A DNA stretch of 64,000 nt from Sporosarcina ureae (GTDB lineage: Bacteria; Bacillota; Bacilli; Bacillales_A; Planococcaceae): positions 1-64,000 of the forward strand of contig NZ_JARIEA010000059.1 in NCBI RefSeq assembly GCF_029267015.1, given 5' to 3'. Under the pieces are notes generated by a model. That model saw nothing but the letters and a program-made list of their open reading frames with translations. It did not search any database and had not been told where the DNA came from. Each line of letters begins with the position of its first letter. The stretch's first letter is position 1. Below are positions 375 to 36,286 of the stretch, piece after piece. A program made the position numbers and the translations under genes.

Positions 375-1325
375 TCATTCTGCTTCAAGGCGAAATTTAT
401 TTTCAAATAGACTTGCCATCAACGCGCCAATAGTTAAATTCATCACCATATTGGCAACTGCAGGTACTGCGGCGAGTGATCCGAAGTGTGCCATTGCAAG
501 TGTTGCAGCGAGTGCAGTGTTGCAAATGCCTGTATGGAATAAAATTGCACGAGCATTGCGCTCTGGTACGCCTAGCCATCTCGAGATAAAGTAGCCGGCG
601 CCCATCGGTATACTGACTTGTAGTGTAACCGCCACGAATACGAGGGGTAGAATGGTTAAGTTCTCAGACAATGCTTGTTGAGCATTTGAAATAACCGAAA
701 GGATGACTAGAAATAACGCAAGTTGAGACAAGACACTCGTATACGGTTTGACCTTCTCCACTTGGCGCTGAAATTTCCACTGGATCAATAAACCCGCAAC
801 TAATGGGAAAAAGACGATGTAAATAATATTTAGGAATAAAGGCCAGAATTCAATCGGTATAAATCGTCCCGCGAATGTCTGCAGTAGGACCGGCGTCAGT
901 ACAGGTGAAATGAATGTGTCCAATGTCGCCATCGTAATACTGAGCGCGACTTCCCCACCGGCTATAAATGTATAAATATTAGCAGACGTCCCGCTTGGTA
1001 CCGTACCCGCTAAAATAATCCCGGTTGCTATCTCCGCTTGGTTTCTGAAGAATAGATAAGCAACCCCTATGGATACACCCACCATAATGGTCCATTTCAA
1101 AAAAACGCCAAGTAAAGCGTGTTTTGGATTTTTAATCACTTCAAGCAATTTTTCCGACGAAAGCGATAGCCCCATCAGAAAGAAGATCGTGCCTAATCCG
1201 AAGCCTGTTAATTGCCGAATCGAAATAAACGTATCCGGAATGACATAGGCAATGATAGATAAGAGGACGATCCAAAGCGGTAAATACTTTGAAATAATTT
1301 TAGATATAGTTTGTATAGCTTTCAC
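375..1325 (-). CDS. Bile acid:sodium symporter (BASS) family transporter
   Basis: A 316-aa polytopic membrane protein, about nine to ten hydrophobic segments, of the BASS superfamily. Members import organic anions such as bile acids, pantoate or keto acids with sodium. Family-like features are the GTVPSGTSANIYTF stretch near residue 110 and the HTGICNTALAATLA stretch near residue 265, matching the two conserved sodium-site regions. The start is GTG with AAGGAGG 8-9 nt upstream. It lies downstream of a 7-unit 21-nt repeat array and on the same strand as the TRAP/acyl-CoA operon, so it may bring in or export a related carboxylate, but the roughly 200-nt gap argues for separate transcription. 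The substrate cannot be told from sequence. Confidence 0.85.
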   Translation of the reverse strand: MKAIQTISKIISKYLPLWIVLLSIIAYVIPDTFISIRQLTGFGLGTIFFLMGLSLSSEKLLEVIKNPKHALLGVFLKWTIMVGVSIGVAYLFFRNQAEIATGIILAGTVPSGTSANIYTFIAGGEVALSITMATLDTFISPVLTPVLLQTFAGRFIPIEFWPLFLNIIYIVFFPLVAGLLIQWKFQRQVEKVKPYTSVLSQLALFLVILSVISNAQQALSENLTILPLVFVAVTLQVSIPMGAGYFISRWLGVPERNARAILFHTGICNTALAATLAMAHFGSLAAVPAVANMVMNLTIGALMASLFENKFRLEAE

Positions 1326-1364
1326 GTGTTTCTCCTCCTTACGAGGAAGTCCGTATGTATTTTC

Positions 1365-1501
1365 TATGAGCGGTGGAATTATGGCTAAGAGCGATTATCG
1401 AATGACTATGAGCGGTTAGAAGCCGAGTATGATCGCTTGGGGTATGCAATAGAGCGGTTAAGTTGTAACTATGAGCACTTAACGCGAATCAATGAGCATC
1501 C
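1365..1501 (+). repeat. Seven-unit tandem array, exact 21-nt period (array A)
   Basis: Seven degenerate copies of an 11-nt core, consensus TATGAGCGGTT, start at 1365, 1386, 1407, 1428, 1449, 1470 and 1491: an exact 21-nt period with a variable 10-nt remainder. The last unit is preceded by GAATC, as in array B at 35497-35633. The array is intergenic, antisense to both flanking minus-strand genes, and contains in-frame stops, so it is not coding. A 21-nt period places every core on the same face of B-form DNA. Confidence 0.9.
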
Positions 1502-1534
1502 TTTAAAGCTATCACATACACCTGCACTTGCTAC

Positions 1535-1840
1535 TCAGCACTTACGGTAAATATACGCTCCATCCTCTATATGATGAAGTTCCGCTGTATCCCCGATCTC
1601 AACAACTGCATCCATTCTAACGGTAACCTTCGCTTTAGACGCATCTAACTGTATAAGCGCCACTGTATAAGGTGCAAGATGAGCAAATTCAGCGGGCGCG
1701 ATATGAATGTCGGTATAACTGTAGACCGTTCCCTTCGTGGAAATATCTTGCTCCTGTAATTTCCCAGTTCCACAACTAGGGCAGCGATATTTATTGGAAA
1801 CACTGGCATATTCACATTGATCGCATTGATAGATATTCAT
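1535..1840 (-). CDS. DUF35 / OB-fold zinc-ribbon acyl-CoA-associated protein
   Basis: A 101-aa protein with an N-terminal rubredoxin-like zinc ribbon (CDQC near residue 5 and CPSC near residue 20), then a beta-rich OB-fold segment (KGTVYSYTDIH, FAHLAPYTVALIQLD, AKVTVRM). This is the DUF35 architecture. DUF35 proteins pair with SCP-x type thiolases or the related retro-aldolases and help bind the acyl-CoA. The start at 1840 is chosen because GGAAAGG lies about 10 nt upstream; it follows the thiolase stop by 4 nt, so the two are translationally coupled. A longer upstream reading has no ribosome binding site. The four cysteines of the ribbon are intact. Confidence 0.85.
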   Translation of the reverse strand: MNIYQCDQCEYASVSNKYRCPSCGTGKLQEQDISTKGTVYSYTDIHIAPAEFAHLAPYTVALIQLDASKAKVTVRMDAVVEIGDTAELHHIEDGAYIYRKC

Positions 1841-1844
1841 CTTT

Positions 1845-2978
1845 TCACAACCTTTCCAGAATATGAACAGTAGAGTATGAACCTGTTCCACCCAAGTTTT
1901 GTGCCAAAGCAAGACGAGCTTTTTCTATTTGGTTCGGTGCTGTGCCACGCAGTTGCCGTACAAGCTGATATATTTGCGCAACACCTGTTGCACCAATCGG
2001 ATGACCTCGTGACAGTAATCCGCCACTTGTGTTTACCGGTTTATCGCCCGTCACTTTCGTTCTCCCTTGTTCCACGGCTAACCAACCTTCTCGTTTATTG
2101 AAAAATCCAAGTTCCTCGATTGCAAGCATTTCTGTCATCGAGAAACAGTCATGGATTTCCACAACATCGATATCTTCAGGGCCTACTCCTGCTTTTTCAT
2201 AAGCTAAGCGACCTGACTCTCGCACTGCGGGTAATGAAAGTAAATCGTCCGCGTCTTGCATTTGCGTAGGACCTGAACTTTGTGCAGAGGAGCGGATATG
2301 AATAGCTCCTTTTTTTCGTGAAATCACCAATGCCGCTGCACCATCTGTCGTCGGGGAACAATCAAATAAGCCGAGTGGAGAAGTAATAATTCGTGCCTGC
2401 ATGATTTCTTCCATCGTTGTCGGCTTTTGGAATTGTGCGAGTGGATTATGCAATGCATGTTCACGGTTCTTCAATGCAATCATGGCTAAATGTTCTTTCG
2501 TAGCGTCTGTTTCATGAAAATAGCGATTTGCCAATACACCAAAGAATCCTGGGAATGTCAGACCTGCCTGCTTTTCATTGGAATCGTTATCCATGGCGGC
2601 ATTAATTGCTTGCGTTACATCCGCGGTCGAAGCATGTTTCATCTTTTCCACACCTGCTATTAGGACCGTATCGTATTCTCCACTTACAATCCCCATAATA
2701 CCTTGGCGAAGTGCTATGCCACCTGACGCGCAAGCACCTTCGACCTTCGCAGTAGGGATATAGCCAAGACCCAGTTCATTCGCTACTAACGCACCGAGGA
2801 TTTCTTGATTCCCAATGGATCCACCCATGAAATTTCCGACAAAGACTGCATCGACCTTCGGATTCCCTGCGTCTTCAAGCGCTTCTATAGATGCTTCAAC
2901 CAATAGTTGCTTCATTGATTTATCTATAAATTTCCCGAACTTCGTCATGCCGATTCCTTCTATATAGACGTTTGTCAT
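1845..2978 (-). CDS. SCP-x-type thiolase family protein
   Basis: A 377-aa thiolase-fold enzyme of the lipid-transfer/SCP-x branch. Visible motifs are the nucleophile region GACASGG (Cys about residue 83), the branch-specific HDCF motif, and the C-terminal GGLLSRGHPIGATG with its catalytic His. In this branch the enzyme either cleaves 3-ketoacyl-CoA or, in steroid side-chain pathways, acts with DUF35 as a retro-aldolase. The retained cysteine favours true thiolysis here. The start ATG overlaps the ligase stop (ATGA), and the DUF35 gene follows by 4 nt, as expected for a physical complex. It is shorter than degradative FadA-type thiolases and lacks their VMG-type motif. Confidence 0.88.
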   Translation of the reverse strand: MTNVYIEGIGMTKFGKFIDKSMKQLLVEASIEALEDAGNPKVDAVFVGNFMGGSIGNQEILGALVANELGLGYIPTAKVEGACASGGIALRQGIMGIVSGEYDTVLIAGVEKMKHASTADVTQAINAAMDNDSNEKQAGLTFPGFFGVLANRYFHETDATKEHLAMIALKNREHALHNPLAQFQKPTTMEEIMQARIITSPLGLFDCSPTTDGAAALVISRKKGAIHIRSSAQSSGPTQMQDADDLLSLPAVRESGRLAYEKAGVGPEDIDVVEIHDCFSMTEMLAIEELGFFNKREGWLAVEQGRTKVTGDKPVNTSGGLLSRGHPIGATGVAQIYQLVRQLRGTAPNQIEKARLALAQNLGGTGSYSTVHILERL

Positions 2979-5638: not shown

Positions 5639-6961
5639 CTACTTGATGTTTAATAAGTCCGGCAAAAATGTAGAAATCTGCGGTATATACGTAATGAGTA
5701 ATAGAATAATGACAGAGGAAACAACGAAAGGAAAGACCCCTCTTGATATTTGTCCTATGGAAGTATTTGATATACCAGCTGCTACAAATAAGTTGAGACC
5801 GACTGGTGGTGTGAAAAGCCCAATCGCCAAGTTGACTGTCATGAAGACACCGAACACTGTCGGATCTACATCGAACAACAGTACAATCGGTAACAAAATC
5901 GGAATGAAAATATAGTATGCAGATATGGCATCAATGAACATGCCCGCAATTAATAAAATGACATTGATCAATAATAAGATGATGATTTTATTGCTTGAAA
6001 TATTTAGCATCACATCGGAAATCTGTGTGGCAATTTGCTCTGTTGTGATGATGTATGCATACACACTCGCTGCACTGACGATGAACATCACAACTGCCGT
6101 CTGAATACCCGCAGCTACTAAAATGTCATAAAGCTTTTTCAATGTTAATTCACGATGAATGAAGAATCCGATGAACAAACTATAAAATACGGCTACTACC
6201 GCCGCTTCTGTCGGTGTAAAGTACCCACCATAAATGCCACCTAAAATAATAACGGGAATTAATAAGCCCCAAATCGCTTTACCGAAGGCTTTAAATCGTT
6301 CAGCACTTGTTGCCGGTTGCATTATGTACTGTTCCGAAATTGGACCTTCACGCTTTTCCTGTCGATATCTAACGAACATAGCCGCGACAATAAATCCAAT
6401 ACCGAGTAGTAAACCAGGAATCACTCCTGCCATGAACATACGCCCAATTGATACCGGAATCTGATCGCCTGCCACTACGGCAAAGACAATAAAAGCAATA
6501 CTTGGCGGAATGATAATACCAATCGCACCCGAACTCGCGACAAGTCCAGCCGCTGTTTCTGTTTTATAACCGTTCTTAACCATCCCCGGAATCAAAATAC
6601 CTCCGATAGCTGCAACGGTAGCAGGGCCTGACCCTGATATTGCTGCAAAAAATATAGCCGTCATAACCGTTACAAAGATAATTCCACCTTTGCGATGACC
6701 TACTAATGCTTGCGCAAAATCAATCAGTCGTTTTGAAATGCCTGCGTGCTCCATAATGACACCCGCCAAGATGAAAAACGGAATCGCTAGCAATGTGAAC
6801 TTCGCTACACTCGTATACATAATGTCCGCAACCAATTCCAAACCGAACAATCCACTGCCCGTAAATAGCACCACGATGGAGGAGATTGCCAAGGCCACAG
6901 CAATTGGCATGCGAAGCATAACTAGAAGGAAAAATACACCGAATAATATAATCGCTGTCAT
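5639..6961 (-). CDS. dctM: TRAP transporter large permease (DctM)
   Basis: A 440-aa integral membrane protein with about 12 hydrophobic segments. It carries the DctM repeats GSGPATVAAIGGILIPGM and APSxP-like stretches (FTPPVGLNLFVAAGIS near residue 395). It is the transport subunit of a tripartite ATP-independent periplasmic-type importer, which moves a bound carboxylate with sodium. It overlaps dctQ by 4 nt and is followed after 17 nt by the SDR gene, so transport and catabolism are one unit. Confidence 0.93.
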   Translation of the reverse strand: MTAIILFGVFFLLVMLRMPIAVALAISSIVVLFTGSGLFGLELVADIMYTSVAKFTLLAIPFFILAGVIMEHAGISKRLIDFAQALVGHRKGGIIFVTVMTAIFFAAISGSGPATVAAIGGILIPGMVKNGYKTETAAGLVASSGAIGIIIPPSIAFIVFAVVAGDQIPVSIGRMFMAGVIPGLLLGIGFIVAAMFVRYRQEKREGPISEQYIMQPATSAERFKAFGKAIWGLLIPVIILGGIYGGYFTPTEAAVVAVFYSLFIGFFIHRELTLKKLYDILVAAGIQTAVVMFIVSAASVYAYIITTEQIATQISDVMLNISSNKIIILLLINVILLIAGMFIDAISAYYIFIPILLPIVLLFDVDPTVFGVFMTVNLAIGLFTPPVGLNLFVAAGISNTSIGQISRGVFPFVVSSVIILLLITYIPQISTFLPDLLNIK

Positions 6962-13700: not shown

Positions 13701-13819
13701 CAATAGTTGTGAATGAGGAAACAAAAATAGGCAGCTCTAACATAACCCATGAACAAGCATGGATAGGAGAGACCTTTTTGCCCCCACCTCTCAACCCCCG
13801 AAGAAAGTGTAGCTTTGAC

Positions 13820-13972
13820 GATACGTAGGCAGGTCTCCTGGCTCCACTTCATCCTTCCACCACGCCTTCCCATGTCTCCATAGTGGCTGATTTGGCAGTC
13901 GTCCGTGTATACAGTTGCGGGGACAGCTCCGGTTTACGGATTCCCTTTTACACCTCGATAGGTACCTATATA
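13820..13972 (-). promoter_or_regulatory. Cobalamin (B12) riboswitch
   Basis: Read on the minus strand, the conserved parts occur in order: a GGTG-AAAAGGGAA-CCG start, the CCGGAGCTGTCCCCGCAACTG core, then the B12-box-like GCCAGGAGACCTGCC closing segment. Spacing is normal for the class. It precedes only the NrdA-like gene, so that gene should be made when adenosylcobalamin is scarce. Confidence 0.93.
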
Positions 13973-14068
13973 TCGTGCAAACTCATGTATTTGATTACTT
14001 TTATTTTATCATGGATATCGTAGAGGGTGGTAGCGTTTGTTTGGGTTATGTACGAAGACAAAATTAAA

Positions 14069-34114: not shown

Positions 34115-35437
34115 ATGAAACAGCGTGAACAATGGACATCCAAGATTGGTTTTATCTTAGCTGCTGCTGGCAGTGCTATCGGATTAGGTGCAATCTGGAA
34201 GTTCCCTTATATGGCCGGAACAAATGGCGGCAGCGTGTTTGTGCTGTTATTTATCATTTGTACATTATTGATCGGGCTACCGATTTTATTGGCTGAGTTT
34301 GTCATTGGACGAAGAGGACATGCAGATGCCGTGACTTCTTTGAAAAAGCTTTCAACAGGACGGAGTTGGGGATGGGTTGGATGGATGGGACTTGCATCGT
34401 CTTTCATCATCTTATCGTTTTACAGTGTCGTAGGTGGATGGATACTTTCCTATTTAGCACGAGCGTTTACATTTAAACTTGGCGGAATAGATTATGGTGA
34501 TTTATTCAATACTACGATTGCCAACCCGTGGGAAGTATTACTAGCGCAAGCTCTGTTTATGGCATTGACGATCTTCATCGTTCAAAGCGGAATTCGTGGA
34601 GGAATTGAGCGAGCAAGTCGCTGGATTATGCCGCTATTATTCTTGTCTTTCATTGTATTGGCAATTCGTTCGTTAACATTGGACGGCGCAATGGAAGGTG
34701 TTCGGTTCTTATTCGTTCCAGATTGGAGTTATCTCAACGGAAAAACATTCCTTGTTGCATTAGGGCAAGCATTCTTTTCACTGAGTGTCGGTGTAACGGC
34801 TATGATGACGTATGCTTCTTACCTTTCGAAAGAGGAAAAACTTGGACAGTCTGCATTTAATGTCTCGATGCTAAATATCGGGATTTCTATACTAGCAGGA
34901 CTTGTGATTTTCCCAGCAGTTTTCGCATTGGGACACTCACCTGAGGCGGGCCCTGGTTTAATCTTCGTTATCCTACCGGCTATTTTCAATGAAATTCCGT
35001 TCGGTGGCGTATTCTTGATCATCTTCTTTTTCCTCATGCTGTTTGCAACATTGACTTCCGCCATTGCGATGCTCGAAATCGTAGTGTCGACAGGAATTCG
35101 CAAAAAGCATGACAGACGAAAACGGGCTTCATGGGTATTCGGAGGACTGATCTTTTTGGTAGGAATCCCAAGTGCATTATCTTTCGGTTTACTAGCCGAT
35201 GTGAGTATCTTCGGTAACTCCATTTTCGACTTTGCTGATTTACTGACGAGTAGAATTGCGATGCCGCTTGGTGCGTTGGCTGTTTCTTTATTTGCCGGCT
35301 TTATTCTGACGAAAGAGGATACGGCGGAAGAGTTAGGCATGAATCCCACTCTTCACACTTTGTGGAAAGTGATCGTCCGCTACTTCGCACCGATTGCGAT
35401 TATAGTCATATTTTTCACTTGGATTTTAGGTATGTAA
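34115..35437 (+). CDS. Sodium-dependent transporter, NSS/SNF family
   Basis: A 440-aa protein with about eleven to twelve helices of the LeuT-type neurotransmitter:sodium symporter family. Helix 1 is typical (KIGFILAAAGSAIGLGAIWKFPY), with the unwound Gly-Ser region and the NGGSVFVLLF stretch in helix 2. Bacterial relatives take up hydrophobic amino acids or tyrosine. Divergent from the XRE gene and followed by a strong terminator; monocistronic. Confidence 0.93.
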   Translation: MKQREQWTSKIGFILAAAGSAIGLGAIWKFPYMAGTNGGSVFVLLFIICTLLIGLPILLAEFVIGRRGHADAVTSLKKLSTGRSWGWVGWMGLASSFIILSFYSVVGGWILSYLARAFTFKLGGIDYGDLFNTTIANPWEVLLAQALFMALTIFIVQSGIRGGIERASRWIMPLLFLSFIVLAIRSLTLDGAMEGVRFLFVPDWSYLNGKTFLVALGQAFFSLSVGVTAMMTYASYLSKEEKLGQSAFNVSMLNIGISILAGLVIFPAVFALGHSPEAGPGLIFVILPAIFNEIPFGGVFLIIFFFLMLFATLTSAIAMLEIVVSTGIRKKHDRRKRASWVFGGLIFLVGIPSALSFGLLADVSIFGNSIFDFADLLTSRIAMPLGALAVSLFAGFILTKEDTAEELGMNPTLHTLWKVIVRYFAPIAIIVIFFTWILGM

Positions 35438-35471
35438 AAAGCACGCCGGAGAAACTCTCCGGCGTGCTTTT
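35437..35471 (+). terminator. Terminator after the NSS transporter
   Basis: AAAAGCACGCCGGAGA and TCTCCGGCGTGCTTTT form a perfect long stem around AAC. Confidence 0.92.
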
Positions 35472-35496
35472 AGTTTGTGTACACTTATTAGTGGGC

Positions 35497-35633
35497 TATG
35501 AGCAGTTTCAAGGTGTCTATGAGCGGATATCCAGCGTCAATGAGCAGTGACGGTACTCGATAGAGCGGTAATCGGCTGTCATAGAGCACTTAAAGTCCCT
35601 GATAGAGCGCTCAGAGAGAATCAATGAGCTTGA
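35497..35633 (+). repeat. Seven-unit tandem array, exact 21-nt period (array B)
   Basis: Cores related to TATGAGCGGTT begin at 35497, 35518, 35539, 35560, 35581, 35602 and 35623: again seven units and an exact 21-nt period. The last unit is preceded by GAATC, as in array A. It lies in a convergent gap, downstream of the NSS terminator and of the minus-strand methionine sulfoxide reductase gene. In-frame stops make it non-coding. Confidence 0.9.
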
Positions 35634-35712
35634 TGTCATTATGTCGGAAATATTCTAGTTGGAACAAACGCATCCGCTTGTAACGCTTCACTCACGCCCA
35701 TCGTGTGAAAGC

Positions 35713-36192
35713 TTAGATATGTTTCATAAGCGCTTCTACCACTAGCGTTAATCCTGCTAAATCATCTTCAGAAAAACGATCCAGTTCAGGGCTGTCGATA
35801 TCGAGCACACCAATTACTTCTCCATCCTTAATCATAGGCACGACAACTTCGGAACGGGATGCAGCGTCGCATGCAATGTGGCCTGGGAATGCGTTGACAT
35901 CCGCTACAACGAGACCTTCTTTCGTCTTCGCAACCGTTCCGCAAACCCCGCGGCCCAGTGGAATACGGATACATGCAGGTAAGCCCTGAAATGGTCCTAG
36001 CACTAGTTCATCTCCATCCATCAAATAAAATCCTACCCAGTTAATCCGGTCAAAGAATTGATTAAGTAGTGCAGATGCATTGCTTAAATTCGCGTACATA
36101 TTTGGCTCTCCAGACACTAATGCGTCCAATTGCGTTGAAAGCTGTTTATATTTCTCTTGTAGATTGTTGGAATAGTCAATAGGTGTGTACAT
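35713..36192 (-). CDS. msrC: Free methionine-(R)-sulfoxide reductase (GAF domain)
   Basis: A 159-aa fRMsr-type GAF protein that repairs free Met-R-sulfoxide with thioredoxin. The three catalytic cysteines are in GLPACIRIPLGRGVCGTVA and GHIACDAASRSE, in the usual order. NWVGFYLMDGDELVLGPFQG and VLDIDSPELDRFS complete the family pattern. ATG at 36192 follows CAGGGA; the longer frame to 36273 is unsupported. Confidence 0.93.
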   Translation of the reverse strand: MYTPIDYSNNLQEKYKQLSTQLDALVSGEPNMYANLSNASALLNQFFDRINWVGFYLMDGDELVLGPFQGLPACIRIPLGRGVCGTVAKTKEGLVVADVNAFPGHIACDAASRSEVVVPMIKDGEVIGVLDIDSPELDRFSEDDLAGLTLVVEALMKHI

Positions 36193-36286
36193 ATCATTTC
36201 CCTGCTTTCTGTGTATAGATCTACTTTTTATCATACACAGAATTACGTTGTTGGAAAAGTAATCGAACTTCATTACACACTTCTAC

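Follow-up and report, generated by a model that had tools for sequence, protein, structure and literature searches.

Several kinds of short repeat are established in bacterial DNA. REP/BIME elements (repetitive extragenic palindromic sequences and bacterial interspersed mosaic elements) are extragenic repeats that number many per genome, lie at gene ends and are bound by gyrase or IHF; the plasmid R6K carries seven 22-bp iterons; and CRISPR loci (clustered regularly interspaced short palindromic repeats) combine short conserved repeats, near-identical and 21-48 nt long, with variable spacers. REPs are palindromic and alternate in orientation (PMC2817692), the BIME-2 elements of Escherichia coli are intergenic and bound by gyrase, whose motif in this species covers 130 bp with phased G/C content (PMC6379681), and direct repeats of the heptamer TAACTGA form many intergenic sets in Beggiatoaceae, Cyanobacteria and Bacteroidetes (PMC4679880). 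Here we analyze arrays of a seven-nucleotide core, WWWGAGC (W, A or T), repeated directly with a 21-nt period in a 64,000-nt stretch of Sporosarcina ureae DNA (positions 1 to 64,000 of contig NZ_JARIEA010000059.1; hereafter the window), in the rest of its genome and in relatives. The arrays are DNA elements, neither genes nor structured RNAs; they are conserved, phased and directional, with a seven-unit mode specific to the clade, a location mostly past gene ends and an excess past rRNA operons. Tentatively, we read them as polar boundary elements that would bind a putative co-evolving protein at the ends of busy leading-strand units.

The window holds two such arrays on the forward strand. 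The seven cores of array 1 (1365..1497) begin at 1365, 1386, 1407, 1428, 1449, 1470 and 1491 and read TATGAGC, TAAGAGC, TATGAGC, TATGATC, ATAGAGC, TATGAGC and AATGAGC, the fourth departing from GAGC and the last ending at 1497. Those of array 2 (35497..35629), which lies between convergent genes, begin at 35497, 35518, 35539, 35560, 35581, 35602 and 35623, end at 35629 and read TATGAGC, TATGAGC, AATGAGC, ATAGAGC, ATAGAGC, ATAGAGC and AATGAGC. Every step in both arrays is 21 nt, and both close with GAATC followed by the terminal core AATGAGC (1491..1497 in array 1), as a first-pass annotation of the window had reported; the seven units and exact period that it described are likewise borne out, 10 WWWGAGC pairs at 21-nt spacing being present where 0.03 are expected (none of 100 shuffles reached 10). 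Tandem Repeats Finder (score 30) listed neither array; the repetition is confined to the core.

A search of the genome and of relatives, which that annotation had proposed, located further arrays in both. The triple WWWGAGC-N14-WWWGAGC-N14-WWWGAGC matched 260 times in the 3.1-Mb genome to which the window belongs (G000) and 0 times in the control reading. Stretches taken at pattern matches, covering 214 of the 260 exact triples, first gave 42 chains; a tolerant array reader that allows 20- and 22-nt steps plus a GATC core merged two split arrays and lost the decayed L203:10288, which left 39 arrays. Seven units were present in 29 of these arrays, eight in two and 11 to 29 in the remaining eight, and none had fewer than seven. 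Similarly, 11 of 21 complete arrays in forty evenly spaced stretches of G018 had seven units (one had five), as did 10 of 18 arrays in G071 (stretches at pattern matches), where none was shorter. Arrays of four to six units occur commonly in other lineages (G032, G086/G087), indicating that seven is a trait of the clade; since the reader finds these shorter arrays, the lower limit of seven in G000 is not a detection artefact. The fixed unit number first proposed thus stands as a non-random number within this clade, not as a universal one.

A profile of 297 units carries clear information at only about 12 of the 21 positions: positions 1-3 are A or T, 4-7 are a nearly invariant GAGC, 8-12 follow RSWYR and 13-21 are weakly constrained. 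The preferred core is TATGAGCGGTT in the first unit and ATAGAGC in the inner ones; in the last unit it is mostly WWTGAGC, preceded by gAtTC, the consensus in which unit 6 ends (30 seven-unit arrays). Within each array all units share one orientation. Many units contain AGCGG, the Chi sequence of Bacillus subtilis, although not on the strand where Chi would be expected.

Set beside the described systems, the arrays resemble REP/BIME elements in being extragenic, in numbering many per genome, in lying at gene ends (array 1 excepted), in their roughly 130-bp scale and in a possible role in supercoiling, but their units are non-palindromic and repeat directly in a single orientation, and the 21-nt period, the replication polarity and the lineage dialects set them further apart. 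Neither the palindromic unit nor the alternating orientation of REPs was found: fold z-scores average about zero (20 arrays), the flanks are non-complementary (39 arrays) and the units of an array all point the same way. Like the iterons of theta plasmids, the arrays are in-phase direct repeats of about two helical turns in about seven copies, an arrangement suited to binding on one face, and their period lies within the 17-22 bp range of such repeats (20-nt steps also occur). Unlike iterons, they lie at tens of dispersed chromosomal loci (39 arrays in G000) with freely varying spacers, and no replication initiator was found among 30 scanned protein-coding neighbours, seven of which had no family at E 1e-15. 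The TAACTGA repeats (PMC4679880) share the many intergenic sets of direct heptamers, whereas the arrays here lie mostly past gene ends, repeat every 21 nt, most often number seven units and have cores that differ between lineages; a position just upstream of start codons, as for TAACTGA, does not characterize them, 26 of 57 clusters being in convergent and only 6 in divergent settings, although a start codon does lie 40 bp from array 1. CRISPR loci also pair a short conserved repeat with variable spacers, but here the core is 7-12 nt, the spacers are about 9 nt, dozens of arrays per genome lie at gene ends and, with some 12 of 21 positions informative, the repeats are not near-identical; no cas family occurred among the 30 scanned neighbours, a genome-wide cas search not having been made. 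Nor is the whole unit homogenised as in a minisatellite, the spacers of seven-unit arrays being unrelated, though homogenised units are present in long arrays. No description of such arrays was found in the literature searched, the scope of which excluded subscription papers and preprints. We place them among dispersed extragenic binding arrays, as a variant; that they form a system of their own is possible, though less likely than not.

Three features add to what the first-pass annotation had described: replication polarity, GT/AC flanks and arrays at many rRNA-operon ends. Its suggestion to tabulate the arrays against genes and replication strand was followed, and the arrays proved to be intergenic, mostly past gene ends, and replication-polar. 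Counting clusters, with tandem copies not counted apart, 57 had both neighbours called, of which 26 were in convergent, 25 in same-strand and 6 in divergent settings. The 32 clusters of G000 contributed 14, 16 and 2, respectively, and the 25 of G018, G071 and G068 contributed 12, 9 and 4, the contexts beside rRNA operons (e.g., L301) being wrong in this second set because rRNA genes are missing from the gene calls, which were made from codon usage and not taken from annotation. The corresponding background of long intergenic regions was 19 convergent, 61 same-strand and 31 divergent among 111 in the G000 stretches, and 36, 140 and 62 among 238 in G018.

Local GC skew placed the core strand opposite the leading strand in 28 of 38 G000 clusters. 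In five complete genomes, where the position of dnaA served as the reference (with the terminus assumed to lie opposite and the genome lengths of G073 and G078 rounded), the same was true of 58 of 70 clusters. By genome, the latter count comprised 18/21 in G071 and 12/15 in G073 (both among the matches listed), 9/10 in G068 (from 50 of 52 places), 8/8 in G078 (all 37 places) and 11/16 in G018 (40 sampled stretches). The polarity was also present between convergent genes, where gene direction is balanced: 23 of 26 such clusters (12/14 in G000; 11/12 in G018, G071 and G068) were opposite the leading strand (two-sided binomial p ~9e-5). Neither the arrays of one genome nor orthologous arrays are independent observations, and p-values are therefore indicative.

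The ends of rRNA operons are a frequent site. Three G000 arrays near contig ends (L179, L183 and L186) adjoin 5S or 23S rRNA, and a search for 5S genes in G000, G018 and G071 gave 19 loci, 11 of which (3/4, 4/7 and 4/8, respectively) have an array past the 5S gene, its near edge 64-135 bp away by arithmetic from the locus flanks. This proportion is far above a rough background, the 16 clusters per 238 long intergenic regions of the G018 sample. In each of the 11 arrays the core strand runs antisense to the rRNA, and their sizes are 39, 28, 27, 21, 19 and 16 chained cores, with 6 to 12 in the others. Two array-less operons of G018 (863136 and 1194258) are followed by tRNA clusters. At L179, an apparent decayed earlier copy of a module (about 6200-6270, by eye) precedes the seven-unit array behind the rRNA operon.

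Comparison between species indicates that the core is maintained while the spacers change. Orthologues of array 1 align with seven units each in G001, G019, G024, G030 and G018; at the same locus the array of G070 is diverged, a few cores are present in G072, and no array is seen in G033, G077 or G011. G074 has a long array there (L255), which keeps the 21-nt period but has TATGCGCG as its core, in alternation with TTTGCGCG so that a 42-nt repeat results. Across locus 1, L206 and L208, identity between G000 and relatives is 0.86-0.94 in the core and 0.42-0.64 in the spacers, and a GATC core is held at the same unit in the orthologues of L206 and L208. This retention of the core, together with spacers that are unrelated between the two window arrays, upholds the earlier view that these are not slippage repeats. 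At locus 1, spacer identity (0.50-0.61) is close to that of third codon positions of the neighbour gene (0.60-0.65), consistent with near-neutral drift. At the other two loci the comparators are the lowest codon-frame averages of the flanks, in which genes of different frames are pooled; L208 spacers (0.64) are similar to theirs (0.73 and 0.67), and L206 spacers (0.42) lie below theirs (0.89 left, 0.76 right), pointing to a possibly faster change of spacers at L206. Hypermutable spacers as a general rule were rejected, since those of locus 1 and L208 match their comparators, L206 excepted. Finally, when G000 array sites were matched in G018 by both flanks (leaving out L188 and L198, with short or overlapping-repeat matches), 8 of 11 sites kept an array in the same orientation.

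The same period recurs with other cores. The WWWGAGC triple was found in 18 of 61 relatives, and the WWGAGC triple in 102 of 261 genomes from 16 of the 19 genera of the order, some of which may be coding repeats. Array-bearing relatives, among the matches listed, include Sporosarcina sp. P2, P13, P32b, P34 and ACRSL and S. luteola, the last two with arrays of other dialects; the scan that gave these names also listed many unrelated repeats, and many of its matches in other phyla are probably coding repeats. Detection without a motif yielded period 21 in 19 regions of G018, and, 42 apart, none of the other periods between 9 and 45 was seen more than twice; in G066, periods 12, 18, 24, 30 and 42 were commoner than 21. 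Further cores at 21-nt period include TTTGCGCGG (G074), CGGTGATAA (G066), TGCAAGCAAA (G005), and TCGCYGGTAAA and CGCCAATAA (G014). The control pattern, reversed but not complemented, is itself matched often in several genomes, a sign of further dialects but also of the fact that the pattern alone is no proof. Such matches (CGAGWW at 21 nt) are numerous in G100, G117, G118, G141, G283 and others and may represent another core dialect in other genera. G014 also has a near-uniform 21-nt array of the GCGCGCAACGCGGGTCATTCC type with more than 50 units (L327, 18279-19466), alongside short arrays with quite different cores, and two WTGAGCGAAA-type arrays of Fictibacillus phosphorivorans (L081 and L116) share ACGTACCGTAAA in their right flanks. 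No 21-nt array was seen in 40-80 kb samples of five other families or of four of five other genera of the family, samples too small to indicate absence.

The 60-nt flanks form a robust part of the element. They are GT-rich on the left and AC-rich on the right, G+T being higher on the left in 39 of 39 G000 arrays, 17 of 21 in G018, 14 of 18 in G071, 32 of 35 in the remaining groups (seven of them orthologues of array 1) and 10 of 11 picked from other dialects and taxa. In the window, the left flank of array 1 (1305..1364, +) is richer in G+T than the right (1498..1557, +); the DNA before array 2 (35437..35496, +) begins with an intrinsic terminator, placed by eye at about 35437-35472 and belonging to the 34115-35437 gene, and continues as GT-rich DNA, and its right flank is 35630..35689 (+). 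The pattern is identical when read from either strand, and exit from the array is into AC-rich, G-poor DNA in both directions. The flanks are enriched in TTNTTT (33 versus 18.0) and T5 (57 versus 18.8), which we read as terminator tails. Three ideas about the flanks were considered and rejected: a skew from transcription of neighbours (no difference between genes pointing in, n=47, and away, n=25; p = 0.49), a hairpin joining the two flanks (in 39 arrays, the flanks of one array paired no better than flanks exchanged between arrays) and an RNA-polymerase pause consensus (no enrichment).

How might these properties be joined? A sequence-specific DNA-binding protein would recognize the core, occupy a single face of some 130-150 bp of helix and co-evolve with the core, giving rise to the lineage dialects; that the core differs between congeneric species favours such a dedicated binder. 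The bound array would form a directional nucleoprotein boundary (an insulator, roadblock or supercoil sink) at the end of a leading-strand unit under heavy transcription. It would halt RNA polymerase that is stray or arrives head-on, take up the supercoils that transcription generates, or do both, and a co-directional replication fork could clear it. The multimeric DNA-binding protein or insulator site proposed by the first-pass annotation thereby stays the best reading, the binder being a prediction from the arrays themselves. We are more doubtful of the wider proposal, although it is possible, that the Planococcaceae have a chromosome-boundary system in which a fast co-evolving protein and seven-site replication-polar arrays, spaced at two helical turns and with a core dialect for each lineage at one shared 21-bp period, cap rRNA operons and other busy leading-strand units.

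A number of observations weigh against the boundary reading. Some arrays, including array 1, lie just upstream of a gene, and several array-adjacent genes carry terminator-like hairpins of their own (by eye), which would make a terminator role redundant. In the 1.5 kb read past each rRNA operon, eight of the 19 ends lack an array. In the sampled G018 sequence, 78% of genes are on the leading strand, such that part of the polarity may follow gene orientation; 58/70 is not significantly greater than 0.75 (p = 0.08), G018 alone (11/16) gives p = 0.21, and same-strand settings show a weak bias of 15 to 10. Steps of 20 nt occur within some arrays, so the helical phase, from which the first-pass annotation placed all cores on one face, is not absolute. 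Orthologous arrays can differ in count between G000 and G018 (7 versus 13 at L179 and 7 versus 14 at L192; also 18 versus 21 at L180 and 16 versus 15 at L190, with seven in both at L206 and L208), which weakens a strict quantum of seven. In addition, three of the 11 matched sites have no array in G018, namely L187 (900 of 974 bases read), L201 and locus 2. The locus 2 intergenic region holds an array in reversed orientation in G001 and G030 and none in G018, G024, G070, G071, G012 or G068. Finally, the boundary model leaves the GT/AC flanks without explanation.

The alternative that survives best, though unlikely, is that the arrays are strong sites for DNA gyrase, or another DNA-wrapping protein, wrapped by it so that positive supercoils past busy operons are removed; this is a special case of the boundary reading with a known protein. 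The length of seven units, about 133-147 bp, is near that of the 130-bp E. coli motif, AT dips recur in them at intervals of about 10.5 bp, and the BIME-2 elements offer a precedent as gyrase sites (PMC6379681). Placement past rRNA operons and in convergent gaps also fits. When the first four harmonics of G+C over the unit are compared, the second (10.5 bp) dominates in 8 of 11 genome groups, but not in G068, G073 or G078. Gyrase is a conserved enzyme, yet the core changes among species of one genus; the directional direct repeats with a sharp sequence core and the commonness of arrays of fewer than seven units in other lineages also argue against it.

Next, and rather unlikely, are dispersed selfish or mobile REP-like repeats, spread by an enzyme acting on lagging-strand single-stranded DNA and tolerated past gene ends. 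Such a process could account for the strand polarity, the lineage dialects, presence or absence at matched sites, the reversed orientation at locus 2 and the scarcity in divergent gaps. Recent copying, however, is not what spacers unrelated between loci suggest, the core is conserved within fixed loci, and seven units are retained at locus 1 in six species. Neither palindromes nor shared ends beyond the arrays were seen, and a search for a mobilising enzyme was not made.

An RNA-level role, in which the array transcript serves as a sponge or repeated site for an RNA-binding protein or as a Rho-linked terminator, seems distinctly unlikely. Regular repeats past gene ends would suit it, as would the AC-rich, G-poor exit in either direction, a composition suited to Rho loading. 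A structured RNA was rejected, however, fold z-scores averaging about zero on both strands of the 20 arrays, and an Rfam gathering search of the window returned only a cobalamin riboswitch and no match at the arrays. The antisense orientation of the rRNA-end arrays and the independence of flank composition from neighbour direction point the same way. As a sub-case, an unstructured RNA bound by protein is possible.

It is improbable that the arrays are mutational products, that is, slippage minisatellites whose polarity, skew and spacer change stem from replication- or transcription-linked mutation. Long arrays do show 42- and 63-nt higher-order repeats and homogenised units, and entire seven-unit modules are duplicated in tandem at L181, L182 (three), L306 (four), L383 (five) and L384; the strand bias could also arise in this way, and L206 spacers differ more than any codon-frame average of their flanks (0.42 versus at least 0.76). 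Mutation alone is at odds with a conserved core beside diverged spacers, with a mode and lower limit at seven and with the predominance of period 21 in G018. A translated heptapeptide repeat (frame WWW GAG CNN, Y/I-E-R...) can hardly be right even though 21 nt is seven codons and the frame is stop-free in 18 of 28 listed chains (a list that includes unrelated coding repeats of other taxa), since stops in the variable codons of the 'YER' frame occur in G000 at the expected frequency (27 versus 23.5), codon 2 is nearly always GAG and 20-nt steps break the frame.

If the boundary reading is correct, the ends of the busiest transcription units would be marked by a quantised, directional DNA array that is undescribed in the literature and libraries searched. 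A period held at 21 bp while the cores change would mean that protein and site co-evolved repeatedly within one genus, which is rare, and the rRNA-operon arrays would provide a handle on how heavy transcription is insulated from the replication fork and from neighbours.

The neighbours of the arrays share no apparent functional theme among the 30 protein-coding genes scanned, which include those for HPF, ribosomal protein L27, LeuS and a ribonucleotide reductase subunit. To the left of array 1 is a minus-strand gene of 316 aa (375..1325) whose start codon (1325) is 40 bp from the array, and to the right is a minus-strand gene for a thiolase-domain protein (1845..2978; 416 bits, just under the family's curated cut-off of 420), with a 125-aa open reading frame (ORF; 1535-1912) between that gene and the array. 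Flanked by two minus-strand genes, array 1 could lie within a transcription unit, and the earlier claim that both arrays sit outside operons is unsupported for this array in a same-strand gap. Both neighbours of array 2 point into it: a sodium-dependent transporter gene on the left (34115..35437, +) and, on the right, a minus-strand gene (35713..36192; 35713-36273 in the mechanical ORF list) with no NCBIfam match at E 1e-15. Elsewhere in G000, a purine riboswitch (L183, 4966-5066, minus strand) lies about 1 kb from a 28-unit array, and the cobalamin riboswitch of the window is at 13811-13984 on the minus strand (102 bits).
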